Part shown: in pieces, positions 11,005 to 18,079 of the stretch
Numbering within the stretch: position 1 is the stretch's first letter
Layout: each line of letters opens with the position of its first letter
Origin: an uncultured Chthonomonas sp.
GTDB taxonomy: Bacteria; Armatimonadota; Chthonomonadetes; Chthonomonadales; CAJBBX01
Reading direction: 5' to 3'
NCBI GenBank assembly: GCA_903951425.1
Contig: CAJBBX010000098.1
Location: 1 to 64,000, forward strand
Length of the DNA: 64,000 bases
Notes under the pieces: model-generated
Databases searched by the model: none
What the model saw: the letters and a program-made list of their open reading frames with translations, nothing else
What the model was told of the DNA's origin: nothing
Made by a program: the position numbers and the translations under genes

Positions 11005-11955
11005 TCAGAGCGCCAGTGAGAGCGCCACAGCCGCCACCGAGACCAGCACGAACCGCGCGACCACCTTCGTCTCGGGGACGCCGCACTCCTCGAAGTGATG
11101 GTGCAGCGGCGAACGGCGGAAGACCCGGTGCGCCCGGGCGTAATCGATCCCATGGCGCACGCGGCGCCACTTGAACACCGCCACCTGGATGATCACCGAG
11201 GCGGTCACGGCCCAGAAGACCAGGCCCCCCACCAGCAGCCTCGCATCGGAACCGCCAAGGACGGCGCCCCCTGCCAGCGCCGCCCCGATGGCGAGGCTCC
11301 CGGTGTCGCCCAAGAAGACGGAGGCCGGCGGCGCATTGTGATACAGGAAGCCCGCCAGGGCGCCGGCCAAGGCAAACATGAAGGTCGAGACGTCGGAGCT
11401 CCCTCCAAAGGCCAAACCGAACGCGAGGGGCAATGCCATGCCCGCCGCGAGCCCATCGGCTCCGTCGGCCAGGTTCACGGCGTTGCTGAACATCACCATG
11501 AGCACGAAGGTCCACACATAGGCGAACCACCCCAGGTCCGTGCCGAACCGCCAGGTTCCGAGGTGGCCGGCATGCGCCGCAATGGCGATGAACGCCACGG
11601 TGGCGATGACCTGCAGCGCCAGCTTCTCGCGCGCCTTGAGTCCGAGGTTCTTGCCGCGGCGAATGCTCAGGAAGTCGTCCAGGAAGCCGATCAGCCCGAA
11701 CGCCAGGGTCAGACCCGCCAGTAACTGGGCCACCACGAAGCCCCTGATCAGCGATACGGTAGACAACCCCGCAAGCAGGCCGAGCAATACAATCGCGCCG
11801 CCCATGGTGGGCACGCCCTGCTTCGCTGCGTGCGCCGCCGGGGCATCCTCGGAGACGTTCTGCCTCGAGCCCACGCGGGACAGCCAGGGCACCACGAGGT
11901 ACCCGGCCGTCGCGGTGAAGACAGCAACGCCAAGGAAGACGTGGCAGGCGGTCAC
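11005..11955 (-). CDS. mraY: phospho-MurNAc-pentapeptide transferase MraY
   Basis: Integral membrane enzyme that transfers phospho-MurNAc-pentapeptide to undecaprenyl phosphate to form lipid I. The 316 residues have about ten hydrophobic segments. Diagnostic sequences are QGVPTMGG near 49-56, the catalytic loop NAVNLADGADGLAAG near 160, and the triple-His loop SPLHHHFEECG near 283. The start is GTG and overlaps the murE stop (GTGA). In many clusters murF lies between murE and mraY; here the two genes overlap, leaving no room for it. Confidence 0.95.
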   Translation of the reverse strand: MTACHVFLGVAVFTATAGYLVVPWLSRVGSRQNVSEDAPAAHAAKQGVPTMGGAIVLLGLLAGLSTVSLIRGFVVAQLLAGLTLAFGLIGFLDDFLSIRRGKNLGLKAREKLALQVIATVAFIAIAAHAGHLGTWRFGTDLGWFAYVWTFVLMVMFSNAVNLADGADGLAAGMALPLAFGLAFGGSSDVSTFMFALAGALAGFLYHNAPPASVFLGDTGSLAIGAALAGGAVLGGSDARLLVGGLVFWAVTASVIIQVAVFKWRRVRHGIDYARAHRVFRRSPLHHHFEECGVPETKVVARFVLVSVAAVALSLAL

Positions 11956-13424
11956 GGGTTGGCCTCCAGCCAGTCCCGGATAACCAGCCGGTCGTCGAAG
12001 GGGTGCTTCACTCCGTCGATCTCCTGGTAATCCTCGTGCCCTTTGCCGTAGACGGCTACCAGGTCGCCGTCACGGGCCTGGGCCAAGGCCGAACCGATGG
12101 CCGCGCGGCGGTCCGGCTCAACGAGGATCGGGGCGCCCGCCTCATCACTGCCCGCGAGGATGTCGGCGATGATGGCTTCGGGCTTCTCGGTGCGCGGGTT
12201 GTCGCTGGTGACCACGACCTGGTCCGCGATGCGCCGCGCGATCCCCAGCATGATCGGGCGCTTGGTCTTGTCGCGGTCGCCGCCGCAGCCGAACACGGCG
12301 ATGAGCCTGCCCGATGTCAGCGCCCTGGCCGACTGCAGGAACTGCTCGACGCTGCCGGGGCTGTGAGCGTAATCGACCACCGCGTACCAGGCGCGGCCCG
12401 TCGGCACGGTCTGGAAGCGCCCCGGCACCGGGCCGACACGGCGTAGCGCCTCTGCGGCAGCTTCCAGGCTCACGCCGAGGGCCATGGCGGCCGCCCCGGC
12501 CGCGGCGGGGGTGTGGACCTGGAACCGGCCCGCAAGCGGCAGGGCGATGCGTTCACTGACAGTGCCGGAGGCCAAGGTCAGGTCGGTAATGGCGGGCCCA
12601 AGCCGCACATCGGTGATGCGCAGGTCGGCGTCCGCAGCCTCCCCGAACCTGACGACCCGGCCGACGCACAGCCGGGCGAGTTCGCCCGCGCGGGCATCAT
12701 CGGCATTGATGACGGACACGGGCGGACGAGATGCGTGCGTGGCTAGGTCAGAGAAGAGCCGGGCCTTCGCCGAGAAGTACTCATCCATTGAGTTATGGAA
12801 ATCTAAATGGTCTTGCGACAGATTTGTAAACACGAGCACATCCCAGTCGCAGCAGTCGACCCGGTGCTTGCAGATGGAGTGCGATGAAACCTCCATGGCG
12901 ACCGCCTGTCCGCCGGCGTCGCGGACCTGGCCGAAGAGCCCCTGCAACTGGTCGGCCTCAGGCGTGGTGTGCGCCGACTCCAGCGGCTGGCCGTCAAGGT
13001 CGGCGCCCAGAGTGCCGATGGAGGCCGTCGACTTGCCTGCTGCGCGCAGGATGGCGGCGAGCATGCGGACCGTGGAGGTCTTGCCCTTGGTGCCTGTAAC
13101 GCCGACCAACGCCAGGCTGCGGCTTGGATGGCTACACAGGGCCGCGGAGACGATGGGCAGGGCCACACGTGTATCGCGAACCCCCAACACCGGCATCTGG
13201 GGCAACTGCGCCGATACCCCGAGCTTGGCTACCAGGGCCACGGCGCCGCGAGCCACGGCATCGGCGGCGAACCGGTGGCCGTCGAAGCGGTCACCCTCGA
13301 TACAGACGAACAGGTCGCCGGGCCGGACTTCGCGCGAGTCGTGGACGGCGCGCTCCAGCCGCAGGCCGCATGCGCTGGCCGGGAAGGCCACGCCCAGAAG
13401 CGTTGCGACCTGCTGCACCGTCAT
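11952..13424 (-). CDS. murE: UDP-MurNAc-tripeptide synthetase MurE
   Basis: Adds the third residue of the stem peptide; 490 residues from the chosen ATG, which overlaps the ftsI stop by one base (TGATG). The ATP loop is VTGTKGKTSTVRML. The DNPR motif (VTSDNPRTEKP) near residue 400 is the known marker for meso-diaminopimelate, so the peptidoglycan is likely DAP type. The reading frame extends upstream to 13520 into ftsI, but that leader is not MurE-like and MTVQQVATLLG is a normal MurE beginning. The protein ends like MurE, with no fused MurF domain. Confidence 0.95.
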   Translation of the reverse strand: MTVQQVATLLGVAFPASACGLRLERAVHDSREVRPGDLFVCIEGDRFDGHRFAADAVARGAVALVAKLGVSAQLPQMPVLGVRDTRVALPIVSAALCSHPSRSLALVGVTGTKGKTSTVRMLAAILRAAGKSTASIGTLGADLDGQPLESAHTTPEADQLQGLFGQVRDAGGQAVAMEVSSHSICKHRVDCCDWDVLVFTNLSQDHLDFHNSMDEYFSAKARLFSDLATHASRPPVSVINADDARAGELARLCVGRVVRFGEAADADLRITDVRLGPAITDLTLASGTVSERIALPLAGRFQVHTPAAAGAAAMALGVSLEAAAEALRRVGPVPGRFQTVPTGRAWYAVVDYAHSPGSVEQFLQSARALTSGRLIAVFGCGGDRDKTKRPIMLGIARRIADQVVVTSDNPRTEKPEAIIADILAGSDEAGAPILVEPDRRAAIGSALAQARDGDLVAVYGKGHEDYQEIDGVKHPFDDRLVIRDWLEANP

Positions 13425-15274
13425 CACCGCGCTCTCCTCGGAAGGCCTGCGGCGACCACTCGGACTTGCGAGTGAGCTGTCGTTTTGGGTTCGACTGCCG
13501 CATCGGGCCGCACGCTCCACTGCCAGAGCAGCTTCTGCGCCACCTGCCGGAAGACGGGGGCAGCCACAACCGACCCGTAGTGCCTGCCCTTGGTCGGCTT
13601 GTCCATGGTGACCATGGCCACCAGGCGCGGGTTGCTCATGGGCGCTACACCAATGAAGGAGCAGACGAAGAACTCATACCTTTTTGTTGCCGGATTCACC
13701 TTCTGGGCGGTGGCGGTCTTGCCGCCCACCCGGTAGCCCTCGACGCCGCCGGTCTTACCGGTGCCGGTGTCGACGACGTTCTCGATGTACTTACGCATCA
13801 GCGCGGCGGTCTCGGGCCGCACGATCTGGGCGCCGGGCCTGGCGGGGGCCGTCCACACAGGCTTGCCATCCGGCCCCAGGTGCTTGTCGATCAGCCGGAC
13901 GGGACGGAGCCTGCCGTCGGTCAGGAGGGCGCAGTAGACGCGCATCAGCGATAGCGGGCTGACCGAGATGGCCTGGCCGAAGGCGATGCGCGCCACGGTA
14001 CCGCGGTCGCTGGGCTTGATCGTGTTGCTGCCGGGCCCGTCGAAGCTGAAGACCGCCGGCCGGTCTCCCGGCAGGCCTGCGCCGGTCTTGCCGAGGAAGC
14101 CGAATCTCTCCAGGAACTCAAGCATCCGATCACGGCCCATCAGGTCGCCGACCCGAGCGAAGTAGCAGTTGCAGCTCTGGGCCAGCGCCCCGCGCAGGTC
14201 CAAGGGCCCGTGCGCCGGTCCCCTACTGCCCGTTTTCGGGCATCGGATGCGGCTCTTACCGATGGCGATCGCGCCGGTGCATCTGTGCGTGAAGCTGGGA
14301 TCGATCACCCCCATGTCGACGGCTGCGGCGGCTGTGGCGAGCTTCATGATGGAGCCGGGCTCGAAACGATCCAGTGAGCGGTTCCGCAGCATCTCGAAGA
14401 ACTGCTTGTGCCCTGCAGGCGTATTCGTCTTCAGCTTGCCCCGACTGGACGGATCCAACGACGGCAGGGAGCCCATGGCCAACACGGACGACGTGGCGGG
14501 GTCCATCACGATGATCTGCGCGGCCTCGGCGCCACACGCATCGAGGCCCTCGCGCAGGCAGGCCATGGCGGTCTCCTGCGCATCTGCGCGGATGGTGAGT
14601 TGGACTGACCTGCCGTCGGCGACAGCCTTAGGGTCCGCTCCGGCCACGGGGCGAAGCACCTTGTCCTGCTGGAACTCAAGGCCCGCCAGGCCGGCGCCGC
14701 GGCTACCGATGATGCCGAGGACCGGCGTGAGGTCGGAGCCGGACGGATAGCGACGGATCGGCTTCCACGTCACCGAGATTCCAGCCAGCGGCGACTTGGC
14801 CTGGAGCATGCGCAACTCGTCGCAAAGGCGTCGTGCGGATACGGGCTCGAGCGGCACCCTGATGGGCCGCCAGCGGGCATCGACGACCCTACCGTCAGGC
14901 AGCTTCCGCTTGACACGCTGCAGGTACGGCAGGATCTCGGCCGCGGGCACCCGGAGGCGCTCGCTCAGCGCGTCGGCGGTGGCCGCGGGCTCAGCCAACA
15001 CCATGGGGTTCGCGACCAGTTCCGGCTCCTCGCGCGTCTCGGCCAGCGCAACCTTCTCGGCGGAGTAGATTCCGCCGCGCAGAGGCTTCGGCTCGCGGCC
15101 CTTCCCGAACATCTCGGCTCCGATCCGAGCCCAGTGCTGCTGGCCGGCGGTCTTCAGGTAGGCGATGCGGACCACGAGCATCAGCGACAGGGCCACCGTC
15201 AGGACGAAGGCCATGGCGAAGCGCGTCCGCTCAAGCTCCGGTTGGGGAGCCTGCACCCTCTCGCCTGTCACCAC
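13424..15274 (-). CDS. ftsI: septal transpeptidase FtsI / class B penicillin-binding protein
   Basis: Monofunctional transpeptidase of septal peptidoglycan, partner of FtsW. The 616 residues comprise one transmembrane helix (about 18-40), a PBP dimerisation domain and the transpeptidase domain. The active-site motifs are S308-I-M-K311 (SxxK), S367-C-N (SxN) and, at 519-521, K-T-A where nearly all family members have K-T-G; the context VGGKTATAQ makes the assignment firm. The C-terminus includes the usual FIGVAPMSNPRLVAMV stretch. No PASTA domain is present. It overlaps the ftsL-like gene by 7 nt and murE by 1 nt. Confidence 0.93.
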   Translation of the reverse strand: MVTGERVQAPQPELERTRFAMAFVLTVALSLMLVVRIAYLKTAGQQHWARIGAEMFGKGREPKPLRGGIYSAEKVALAETREEPELVANPMVLAEPAATADALSERLRVPAAEILPYLQRVKRKLPDGRVVDARWRPIRVPLEPVSARRLCDELRMLQAKSPLAGISVTWKPIRRYPSGSDLTPVLGIIGSRGAGLAGLEFQQDKVLRPVAGADPKAVADGRSVQLTIRADAQETAMACLREGLDACGAEAAQIIVMDPATSSVLAMGSLPSLDPSSRGKLKTNTPAGHKQFFEMLRNRSLDRFEPGSIMKLATAAAAVDMGVIDPSFTHRCTGAIAIGKSRIRCPKTGSRGPAHGPLDLRGALAQSCNCYFARVGDLMGRDRMLEFLERFGFLGKTGAGLPGDRPAVFSFDGPGSNTIKPSDRGTVARIAFGQAISVSPLSLMRVYCALLTDGRLRPVRLIDKHLGPDGKPVWTAPARPGAQIVRPETAALMRKYIENVVDTGTGKTGGVEGYRVGGKTATAQKVNPATKRYEFFVCSFIGVAPMSNPRLVAMVTMDKPTKGRHYGSVVAAPVFRQVAQKLLWQWSVRPDAAVEPKTTAHSQVRVVAAGLPRRAR

Positions 15275-15653: not shown

Positions 15654-16607
15654 CTAAGCAGGCCAGGGCGCCGTCTTGGCCGCCGCCCGAAGCACCGCCG
15701 ATCGCGAAAGCGGCGACCTCGACACCTCAGCGGCCGACGGCTTGACGGCCCTTGGGGTCAGGCTCTCCACCACGCGCTCGCGGCCGCACCGGCAATCCAG
15801 CGCACCCGGCTCGCACTGGCACTTCCCGCGCATTCGATCGATGAACGTCTTGACCAGCCGCGCCTCGCCGCTGTGGAATGCGATGAAGGCCATCCGCCCT
15901 CCCACCCGCAGCCTGGCAAGTGCGGCGGGCAGCATCCGCTCCAGCGACGGAAGCTCCGCATTGACGACCATGCGCAGGCTCATCATCGCCTGCGTTGCCG
16001 GATGCGTCCGCGACCGGCCCGCCGGCCGTGGCGCCGATCCCGCCACGATCGCCGCGAACTGGGCGGCAGTCCGGATCGGCTCACGTCTGCGGGCGGCCAC
16101 CACGGCGCGCGCCACACGGCCCGCGCCCGGCTGGTCGCCGTACTCGCGCAGAACCCGCGCCAACTCCGCTTCGTCTACATCGTTCAGGTACTCTTCCGCC
16201 GTCACTCCGGTGGATCGATCCATCCGCATGTCAAGCGACGTCTCGTCGCGGAACGACATACCTCTGCCCGTGTCCAACTGCACCGCGCAGAGGCCCAGAT
16301 CGGCCAACACCACATCGACGCGGTCGATACCGAGGGCATCGAGATGCGCACACAGATCGGCGTAGTTGCCATGGGCCGCCCGGACAGGCGCCCCCTCGCG
16401 GGCCACCTTCTCGGCGGCCTGCCGCAACGACTCTGCATCGCGGTCAATCAGCACAACCAGCCCATCCGGTCCCACCTCCTGGGCCGCTCGGGCCGCATGG
16501 CCGCCCAGACCGGCGGTCAGGTCCAGGTAAGTCTCGCCCGGCCGCAACCGCAGGAGGTCGAACGTCTCCTCCATGAGCACCGGGGCATGACGCTCGCCGG
16601 CCTCCAC
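15654..16607 (-). CDS. rsmH: 16S rRNA (cytosine1402-N4)-methyltransferase RsmH (MraW)
   Basis: SAM-dependent methyltransferase acting on C1402 of 16S rRNA. The 317 residues begin at a GTG directly after the mraZ stop. The HAPVLMEETFDLL opening, the YLDLTAGLGGHA SAM loop, VLIDRD and the terminal SRSAVLRAA support the family. Several normally strict positions deviate: DLGLCAVQLD replaces DLG(V/I)SSxQLD, and FHSGEARLVK replaces FHSLEDRxVK. It is therefore a diverged but full-length member. Location next to mraZ is canonical. Confidence 0.9.
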   Translation of the reverse strand: MEAGERHAPVLMEETFDLLRLRPGETYLDLTAGLGGHAARAAQEVGPDGLVVLIDRDAESLRQAAEKVAREGAPVRAAHGNYADLCAHLDALGIDRVDVVLADLGLCAVQLDTGRGMSFRDETSLDMRMDRSTGVTAEEYLNDVDEAELARVLREYGDQPGAGRVARAVVAARRREPIRTAAQFAAIVAGSAPRPAGRSRTHPATQAMMSLRMVVNAELPSLERMLPAALARLRVGGRMAFIAFHSGEARLVKTFIDRMRGKCQCEPGALDCRCGRERVVESLTPRAVKPSAAEVSRSPLSRSAVLRAAAKTAPWPA

Positions 16608-17072
16608 CTACTTGGCGCCTTCGCGGTCGGCCGGACCGGGCCCGAGCCGGGTAGCGGCCGCGAGTTGGGGCTCCAGGCCGCGCATGGTTTGCTCAAGGTA
16701 GGCCGTGAACCGGGGTTGCGACCAGATTTCCACCCAGCCGCCCTGTGCGCTCACCGTAACGGGGCCCTTCTCCGCGATGCCCGCCCAATCACGCAGGTGT
16801 CGAGGCACGGTGCAGCGGCCGGCAGTGTCCACGGTCACCTTCTGGGCGCCGGCGGTGAGCCTGCGGAAGAAAAGGTCCTCGACAGCGGGCACATCGGGCG
16901 CGGCGCCGGAGCTGATGCGCTGCCAGACATCCTCGGGAGCGGCGATGAGGCAGCCGTGGAGCCAACGCGAGAAGACGAGGACCGGGCCGAACGCGTCGGT
17001 GACTGCGTCTGGCCAGGCGATGCGCCCGGTCGGGTCTATGGTGAGCCAGTATTCGCCTCTGTGTTCCGCCAC
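16608..17072 (-). CDS. mraZ: transcriptional regulator MraZ
   Basis: DNA-binding repressor of the dcw operon with two AbrB-like MraZ halves. The longest frame runs to 17369, but the conserved opening (EHRGEYWLTIDPTGRI) places the start at the GTG at 17072, giving 154 residues, a normal MraZ length. Both DxxGR signatures are present: DPTGR in the first half and DTAGR in the second. It is the first gene of the cluster, and its own leader carries candidate MraZ boxes, consistent with autoregulation. The ribosome site is imperfect (GGAG and AGG within 14 nt) and partly abuts the leader hairpin. Confidence 0.88.
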   Translation of the reverse strand: MAEHRGEYWLTIDPTGRIAWPDAVTDAFGPVLVFSRWLHGCLIAAPEDVWQRISSGAAPDVPAVEDLFFRRLTAGAQKVTVDTAGRCTVPRHLRDWAGIAEKGPVTVSAQGGWVEIWSQPRFTAYLEQTMRGLEPQLAAATRLGPGPADREGAK

Positions 17073-17088
17073 GGCGCCACACCTGACT

Positions 17089-17126
17089 CCAGTGGAAGCG
17101 ACGCTGGAGGTCGTCGCCTCCACTGG
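17089..17126 (-). promoter_or_regulatory. 14-bp hairpin in the mraZ leader
   Basis: Arms at 17089-17102 and 17113-17126 pair over 14 positions in the RNA, with a single G-U wobble and a 10-nt loop. The hairpin ends 16 nt before the mraZ GTG, and its 3' foot touches the GGAG of the ribosome site. It could modulate translation or stability of the dcw leader; it is also palindromic DNA next to the MraZ boxes. Confidence 0.6.
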
Positions 17127-17143
17127 AATCCACCCTAGACCAT
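17119..17143 (-). promoter_or_regulatory. putative MraZ operator (three TGG repeats, 10-bp period)
   Basis: On the minus strand ATGGT, GTGGA and GTGGA occur at 17143, 17133 and 17123, exactly 10 bp apart. Known MraZ sites are short direct repeats with a TGGG-like core spaced 5 nt apart upstream of mraZ. Position between the promoter and mraZ fits autorepression. The third repeat overlaps the leader hairpin arm. Confidence 0.6.
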
Positions 17144-17163
17144 GAGAATCCGTCTGGACCCAG

Positions 17164-17192
17164 ATTATAACGCCACCGGGAGCAGGTGTCAA
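17164..17192 (-). promoter_or_regulatory. consensus sigma-70 promoter of the dcw operon
   Basis: On the minus strand a perfect TTGACA (17187-17192) and a perfect TATAAT (17164-17169) are separated by exactly 17 bp. Transcription would start near 17157, leaving a leader of about 85 nt before mraZ. It is the strongest promoter visible in the window and should drive mraZ through ftsZ2. Confidence 0.9.
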
Positions 17193-17293
17193 CCACCCGT
17201 CACGCTTGACCCGCGGGCGATTTTTGCGATTTTTCGGCGTGCCGCCGTCGAACGCGCTTGGCGTGCGTACGTGCGGTGATGGAGGAGCGTCAA

Positions 17294-18079
17294 ATGTCGT
17301 TGCTGACACGGCTTGGGGCCACGCTGGGCATCTGCGGAGCGCGGGTGCGGATCGACGTAGCAGGCCCATCGCAGTATCGCGGCGGTGAGGTCGCGGGGAC
17401 GGTTACGCTGGCTGGCGGGGCTGAGGCGCAAGCGGTGGAGAAGCTCACCGTAGATCTCTGCGAGTACTGGGTCACGGGTAGCGGGAAGAACCGCACGCAT
17501 CATGAGCGGGTCATCGAACGGTGCGTCGCCGCCGAGCTTGTTACCGCAACTCCTGGACAGGAAGGAGCCCACGACTTCACGGTCCGGCTGCCGCAGTCGG
17601 CGCGATGCTCGCGGCGGCGGGAGGGGTGGATTCTCCGAGCCGAGGCGCACATCGCCATGGCGGTCGATGCGCGCGGCGCGGCCGAGTTGAAGGTGCTGCC
17701 CCAGCCGGAGATTCTGGCGCTTCAGCGGGCCCTGCGTGATGTCCTGGGCTTCACGCCGCTCTCATGGCAGGGCGACGAGCCTGTGGTCCGCTACACGTTC
17801 GCGGCGCCTGAGTGGGCCAGGGGCCAGATCGACGGCGTCGTGCTGGCGGTCTTCGCGGACGGCTCTACGGTGACCGGCAACCTCGAACTGAACATGCAGG
17901 AGCACGGAGTCGGCGACATGTTCCGGGCCATGGTGGCCATGGACCGCAGGAGCGAGCCGCTGGCCATCCCCCGCGAGCTGCTCCTCACCAAGCGCGGTTC
18001 ACCCGACCCGCAGGCGGCGGCCGGGCACCTCTACAGGGCGCTGGCGGCCGCCGGGATCACCACCGCGCGGCCCGCGTAG
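17294..18079 (+). CDS. Spo0M-like arrestin-fold protein
   Basis: A 261-residue protein resembling SpoOM (sporulation-control protein) of the arrestin-like superfamily. The N-terminal half has the Spo0M pattern (LGICGARVRID, then YRGGEVAGTVTLAGG, then KLTVDLCEYWVTG). The C-terminal half has the second beta-sandwich with the typical ELNMQEHGVGDMFRAM stretch. In Bacillus Spo0M influences sporulation and division; here the role is unknown. GGAGGAG 6 nt upstream of ATG 17294 selects this start over an in-frame ATG at 17258. The gene is divergent from mraZ and convergent with the next gene, with only 3 bp between stops. Confidence 0.75.
   Translation: MSLLTRLGATLGICGARVRIDVAGPSQYRGGEVAGTVTLAGGAEAQAVEKLTVDLCEYWVTGSGKNRTHHERVIERCVAAELVTATPGQEGAHDFTVRLPQSARCSRRREGWILRAEAHIAMAVDARGAAELKVLPQPEILALQRALRDVLGFTPLSWQGDEPVVRYTFAAPEWARGQIDGVVLAVFADGSTVTGNLELNMQEHGVGDMFRAMVAMDRRSEPLAIPRELLLTKRGSPDPQAAAGHLYRALAAAGITTARPA

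Follow-up and report, generated by a model that had tools for sequence, protein, structure and literature searches.

In this work we analysed the control region of mraZ in a 64,000-nucleotide stretch of DNA (the window) from an uncultured Chthonomonas sp. of the phylum Armatimonadota. The features of this region are summarized in Table 1. The product of the mraZ gene (147-residue query) matches the family model PF02381 with 38.5 bits, above the cut-off of 23, and TIGR00242 with an E-value of 8.8e-11 and 41.9 bits, under the curated cut-off of 98.35. Its best sequence matches among solved structures are MraZ proteins (1n0e, 9qlr, 9sx6, 9qlg), and residues D13, G16, R17, D82 and R86 are invariant among eight aligned MraZ proteins, so that the arginines of the DxxGR motifs are kept. 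The protein is nevertheless a divergent MraZ, with 24-32% identity to five MraZ proteins from other Armatimonadota genera. Downstream of rsmH lie, in this order, a 123-residue open reading frame that has no Pfam match, a transpeptidase PBP, a Mur ligase, a glycosyl transferase family 4 protein (MraY family), a second Mur ligase and an FtsW/RodA protein; mraZ therefore stands at the head of a dcw cluster, followed by rsmH and by cell-wall and division genes. The first Mur ligase gene (11955-13520) abuts the MraY-family gene (11008-11955) on the minus strand, and as it runs straight into it there is no room for MurF between the two. Two or more MraZ-like matches per genome were observed in several Armatimonadota (among them G003, G011, G155, G156 and G171), with up to four in G171.

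Table 1. Features of the mraZ control region, in window coordinates
Feature	Position	Strand	Basis or remark
-35 hexamer TTGACA	17187..17192	minus	Promoter scan; 0/6 columns variable in 3/3 genus members
-10 hexamer TATAAT	17164..17169	minus	Promoter scan; 17-bp spacer from -35
Core 1, TGG, weaker candidate box	17160..17162	minus	TGG in 3/3 genus members
Core 2, CGG, doubtful box	17150..17152	minus	In phase; no clear enrichment of CGG elsewhere in the phylum
Core 3, TGG here, CGG in both relatives	17140..17142	minus	Sequence and genus alignment
Box 4, GTGG here and in G002, ATGG in G001	17130..17133	minus	Sequence and genus alignment
Box 5, GTGG in 3/3, within the hairpin 5' arm	17120..17123	minus	Sequence and genus alignment
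Leader hairpin ACCTCCAG	17085..17130	minus	Arms 17130-17112 and 17103-17085, 19 pairs (two G-U); 8-base loop 17111-17104
AGGTG, probable Shine-Dalgarno	17080..17084	minus	Directly 3' of the hairpin; anti-Shine-Dalgarno pairing
mraZ	16608..17072	minus	GTG start 17072-17070; family models, and codon-position pattern for the start
rsmH (mraW)	15654..16607	minus	GTG directly after the mraZ stop

The mraZ frame is open through the leader and the promoter (16608-17369, minus strand; 253 codons from an upstream ATG), which makes this gene a trap for automatic start calling. Position of the start matters for the nature of the hairpin, as a start at the in-frame GTG at 17123-17121 would lie inside it and turn it into coding sequence. 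The frame up to this codon is open in all three members of the genus sample (the window genome, G000, and its two relatives G001 and G002), and an AGGGTGG resembling a Shine-Dalgarno is fairly well placed for it, with a duplex energy of -7.5 kcal/mol compared with -7.3 kcal/mol for the 17072 start in the window genome. In G002 and G001, however, the duplex is better for the 17072 start than for the 17123 start, and the boxes of relatives precede the likely mraZ start. Moreover, changes among the genus members fall at codon positions 1/2/3 in numbers of 2/2/2 in 17119-17073 but of 5/6/38 in 17069-16700. The even distribution in the former stretch, where there are only six changes, looks non-coding; we therefore place the start at 17072, with AGGTG (17084-17080) abutting the foot of the hairpin, and regard the upstream start as very unlikely.

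The sigma-70 promoter ahead of mraZ matches the consensus at 12 of 12 positions with a spacer of 17 bp, as was claimed in an earlier note made from the sequence alone. A promoter scan of 15 kb on both strands yielded one further site, which is weaker (9/12; 0.9 expected). Within the genus TTGACA and the 17-bp spacing are present in all three genomes, and the -10 reads TATAAT in two of them and TATCAT in G001. A Spo0M-like gene (PF07070) lies on the plus strand from 17294, divergent from mraZ, and the two genes have a common upstream region.

The earlier note had also described TGG cores at 17142, 17132 and 17122, in steps of exactly 10 bp, and this phasing is borne out. Between the -10 and the GTG start at 17072 lies a leader of 91 bases; three TGG in 10-bp steps were reached in 3 of its 2000 dinucleotide shuffles. 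The three-box array is incomplete, as YGG is also found in phase at 17152 (CGG) and 17162 (TGG), which brings the number of cores to five: GTGG at two of the five places, TGG at two more and CGG at one. Whether TGG (three) or YGG (five) is counted, the direct repeats of the leader thus number three or more, at a spacing of about 10 bp. Five YGG at 10-bp steps were found in none of 2000 dinucleotide shuffles, and occur once in the window. In the whole 6.1-Mb genome, the bare five-fold YGG pattern has 11 matches, compared with 11 for the reversed control; since it is no commoner than the control, the case for the array rests on its position and conservation, not on the pattern by itself. Several of the 10-bp-period matches, on contigs C15, C128, C148 and C157 of G000, are CACGGAC-type runs at unrelated places. 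As for position, the cores lie 1 to 41 bases past the -10, which puts the array downstream of the -10 and presumably over the transcription start.

Conservation within the genus points in the same direction. Each of the three genus members has YGG at every one of the five phased positions, and one of the 15 core columns of the array varies, compared with 13 of the 35 other columns (Fisher one-sided p 0.026). The GG of the cores is invariant (0/10 columns vary), and the sole core change is that of T at 17142 to C in both relatives. Both nearest genomes thus retain the hairpin as well as the 17132 and 17122 boxes, but have CGG in place of the TGG at 17142, and a strict array of three TGG across the genus is rejected for this reason.

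MraZ was found in 26 of the 31 genomes of the order (the class-wide set consists of the same 31 genomes) and in 190 of the 205 genomes of the phylum set. We assembled 97 upstream regions from 95 genomes: 27 from the order (28 matches, minus one that has no upstream sequence) and 70 from the 190 phylum genomes with a match, of which 30 were returned loci and 40 were hand-chosen, one or a few per family. Two of the 27 order regions, which have no recognisable promoter, were left out of the box analysis of the order. In the 94 regions outside the genus, GTGG occurs 255 times compared with 105.5 in shuffles, and pairs of GTGG are spaced by 10 bp in 28 cases (0.42 expected) and by 11 bp in 53 cases (0.56 expected), compared with none at 9 bp and one at 12 bp (0.53 expected); more peaks are seen at 20-22 and 30-33 bp. 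At least two GTGG boxes 10 or 11 bp apart are present in 41 of the 94 regions (shuffle mean 1.2, maximum 5) and absent in 53. A purely 11-bp habit in the order is rejected, as the phylum set shows both spacings. At in-phase places beside good arrays, TGG (15, 4.8 expected) and GGG (12, 5.0 expected) are both enriched, whereas CGG shows no clear enrichment (5, 2.9 expected). The array in the window accordingly fits a phylum-wide habit in which 10 bp is one of two spacings used, with its CGG core remaining doubtful. The boxes are degenerate by comparison with the GTGG of the phylum: only two of them have this sequence, and it is doubtful whether CGG is accepted as a core. Many of the 94 other Armatimonadota leaders share with the window GTGG boxes 10-11 bp apart just past a sigma-70 promoter, but many have more and cleaner GTGG boxes than here, often 11 bp apart, and none has a comparable hairpin. 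Judged by its sequence, the array appears to be an MraZ-type operator that is ordinary in kind for the phylum, with degenerate boxes.

The array also resembles operators described in other phyla. In Mollicutes, MraZ operators have the form (AAAGTGKN3)3 with a 10-bp period, and the Mycoplasma gallisepticum protein, as a single octamer, is described as binding a related array in which a gap differs by one base (PMC5282649). The direct repeats, the GTG core, the 10-bp period and the location at the mraZ promoter are common to those operators and to the array described here, but here there is no AAA before the core, two GTGG boxes are accompanied by degenerate cores, and the last box lies within a hairpin. 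In Burkholderia cenocepacia, four 7-base repeats with 3-base gaps are located past the -10 and over the start site (PMC7761207); this PmraBc operator shares with the present array repeats of 10-base period that follow the -10 and extend across the transcription start (a presumed one in our case), but the array has up to five in-phase cores and a weaker consensus. Finally, a G-quadruplex is reported in a G-rich stretch downstream of the mraZ promoter of Staphylococcus aureus (PMC11796246). There too a nucleic-acid structure lies downstream of the promoter, but it is a G-quadruplex in DNA, instead of a long hairpin. Among the records listed for MraZ in Armatimonadota or Chthonomonas, and for MraZ with cryo-EM since 2024, none dealt with this subject.

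The second element of the leader is the hairpin. It had been described as a 14-bp stem; the hairpin exists, but its size was understated, as 19 pairs are found. Its foot ends at 17085 and AGGTG begins at 17084, so that the proposed contact of the 3' foot with the ribosome site is verified, and so is the proposed overlap with the third box, the last box being contained in the 5' arm. This is the longest stem in the window on either strand with a loop of 3-12 bases, the next one having 15 pairs. Folding of the 102-base leader gives a z-score of -5.3 (none of 200 shuffles as low); with slightly different bounds it is -4.6 in G000, -2.8 in G002 and -3.3 in G001. The stems of the three genus members (19, 17 and 16 pairs) are the three longest of the 97 regions, and a comparable strong hairpin is present in 3/3 genus members and in none of the other 94 regions: the next-longest stem has 15 pairs, terminates in a T run and is located 117 bases upstream, and no other exceeds 13 pairs.

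In the alignment of the three sequences, 54 of the 57 pair cells of the hairpin are paired (94.7%). One change is compensatory (A-U to C-G, in G001) and two are one-sided changes to G-U, while of the three broken cells two are at the foot in G001 and one is near the loop in G002. The covariation check proposed in the earlier note therefore gives a mixed result, with one compensatory pair set against three broken cells, and the covariation of the hairpin alone is matched by 164 of 500 shuffles. Variable columns number 7/46 in the hairpin and 0/8 in its loop, compared with 8/17 in the promoter spacer, 44/138 in the upstream stretch and 49/373 in the coding stretch; variability in the hairpin is thus below that of the promoter spacer and of the upstream stretch, and similar to that of the coding stretch. 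The inverted repeat might be a recent product of chance or mutation that has no function and has been kept by short divergence, as its confinement to one genus (3 of 97 regions), the three broken cells and the small number of sequences (three only) would allow. We nevertheless find this unlikely, given that the hairpin columns change less than the promoter spacer or the upstream stretch, that most changes preserve pairing and that the stem is the longest of the window.

Several other origins were considered. No second copy of the hairpin was found in its own genome (the best other match covers 22 bases, E 0.2), and a dispersed repeat or mobile hairpin is therefore rejected. An intrinsic terminator or attenuator is rejected as well, because no T run follows the hairpin on either strand; the hairpin is also absent from the terminator scan. 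The leader has no Rfam match at E-values up to 1. The hairpin could alternatively be a feature of the DNA, a dyad with inverted MraZ boxes forming a longer two-sided operator, RNA folding being then a by-product. Inverted TGG cores are indeed present in the hairpin arms on the plus strand (17093, 17105 and 17124), and box 5 lies within an arm. However, these inverted cores are spaced by 12 and 19 bp rather than 10-11, and 12 bp is a spacing for which the phylum set gave no enrichment. In addition, of the distinct departures from Watson-Crick pairing, by our count 4/7 are G-U on the mRNA strand versus 1/7 on the other strand. A two-sided DNA operator is therefore improbable, and we favour a hairpin acting in the RNA.

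Closure of the ribosome site might have provided strong evidence for control at the RNA level, but is rejected as such. For the footprint from -20 to +15, opening energies of 24.9, 24.2 and 21.9 kcal/mol were obtained in the genus members, which rank first to third of 25 order members (starts were hand-assigned, and the two regions that have no recognisable promoter were left out). The leaders of the genus are GC-rich (60-66%), so that this ranking is confounded by GC content. Random segments remove most of this effect: among 1000 random 120-base segments of the window, 163 have an opening cost at least as high as the 24.9 kcal/mol of the window leader, and by this measure the ribosome site is not closed beyond chance. 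The cost at another dcw start used for comparison, that of ftsI, is 24.7 kcal/mol. A strong specific closure is thus not supported.

Our observations support a model in which MraZ probably represses its own operon and a genus-specific leader hairpin tunes the mraZ mRNA. MraZ, the product of the first gene, would be expected to bind the phased boxes, with good GTGG at 17133 and 17123 and weaker cores at 17142, 17152 and 17162. The predicted operator spans the end of the -10 and extends into the leader, and bound MraZ would block RNA polymerase, leading to repression of its own operon. The leader RNA would fold into a strong hairpin that contains the last box and ends at the mraZ ribosome site. 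This hairpin appears to be a genus-level addition, and would most likely be a fixed element of the RNA, by which translation of mraZ is lowered or buffered or the 5' end of the transcript is shielded.

The features reported in the earlier note, promoter, phasing and hairpin, largely hold and are partly confirmed, and the interpretation that it drew from them, a dual control of the whole dcw operon by DNA and RNA, is partly supported. The DNA part, an MraZ operator heading a dcw cluster, is supported by the matches to MraZ models, the DxxGR arginines, the gene order and the GTGG arrays of the phylum. The RNA part is weakly supported: the hairpin exists and is conserved within the genus, but the comparison comprises three sequences, broken cells outnumber the compensatory pair, and closure is not unusual. 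Combined control by DNA and RNA is a possible hypothesis. RNA-level control that would extend to the whole operon is not supported; the leader hairpin would act first on mraZ, and the hairpin as a switch for the whole operon is without support.

The leader may also adopt other structures. In the RNAalifold consensus of the three leaders, columns 9-12 pair with 24-27 (window 17163-17136, minus strand) to form a small four-pair 5' helix with three both-side changes, and the covariation score of this helix together with the hairpin is reached by 6 of 500 shuffles. Within the hairpin, a six-pair helix TGGAGG/CCTCCA (columns 42-47 with 54-59 of the leader alignment) is possible in all three sequences. 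The hairpin loop carries ACCTCC, invariant in the three genomes, which we take to resemble an anti-Shine-Dalgarno. We consider the small 5' helix, the six-pair alternative and the ACCTCC loop as leads and not as findings. They might indicate that the leader is a regulatory RNA switch, in which alternative helices change state and thereby control translation of mraZ; besides the six-pair helix, a four-pair helix with three both-side changes is contained in none of 600 column shuffles, and the RNAalifold consensus pairs the ribosome site and the start. However, a simpler reading of the four-pair helix is a one-base register shift of both GAC and GTC, in which case two matched indels, and not three events, may account for it. 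This helix is in addition weak, and the leader has no Rfam match and no T run past the hairpin; we judge a switch to be rather improbable. Less plausible still would be a composite element with two roles for the last MraZ box, that of DNA operator and that of one arm of an RNA hairpin whose loop resembles an anti-Shine-Dalgarno, the level of MraZ setting transcription by DNA binding, and translation of mraZ being set by a two-state leader that passes from the early six-pair helix to the 19-pair hairpin.

The MraZ operator autorepressing its operon, with a fixed hairpin acting on the mRNA, remains our preferred reading. On the basis of sequence, the MraZ operator is thereby extended to the Armatimonadota, a phylum that has received little study, in which the spacing of the boxes is 10 or 11 bp and not 10 bp alone. 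The locus offers a natural case of an operator box locked in an RNA stem. Should the hairpin affect translation of mraZ, it would add a second layer to a circuit for which a single one is usually shown. Another member of the order (L027, genome G025) also has a strongly folded mraZ leader (z -2.4), with a different long structure near its GTGG box.
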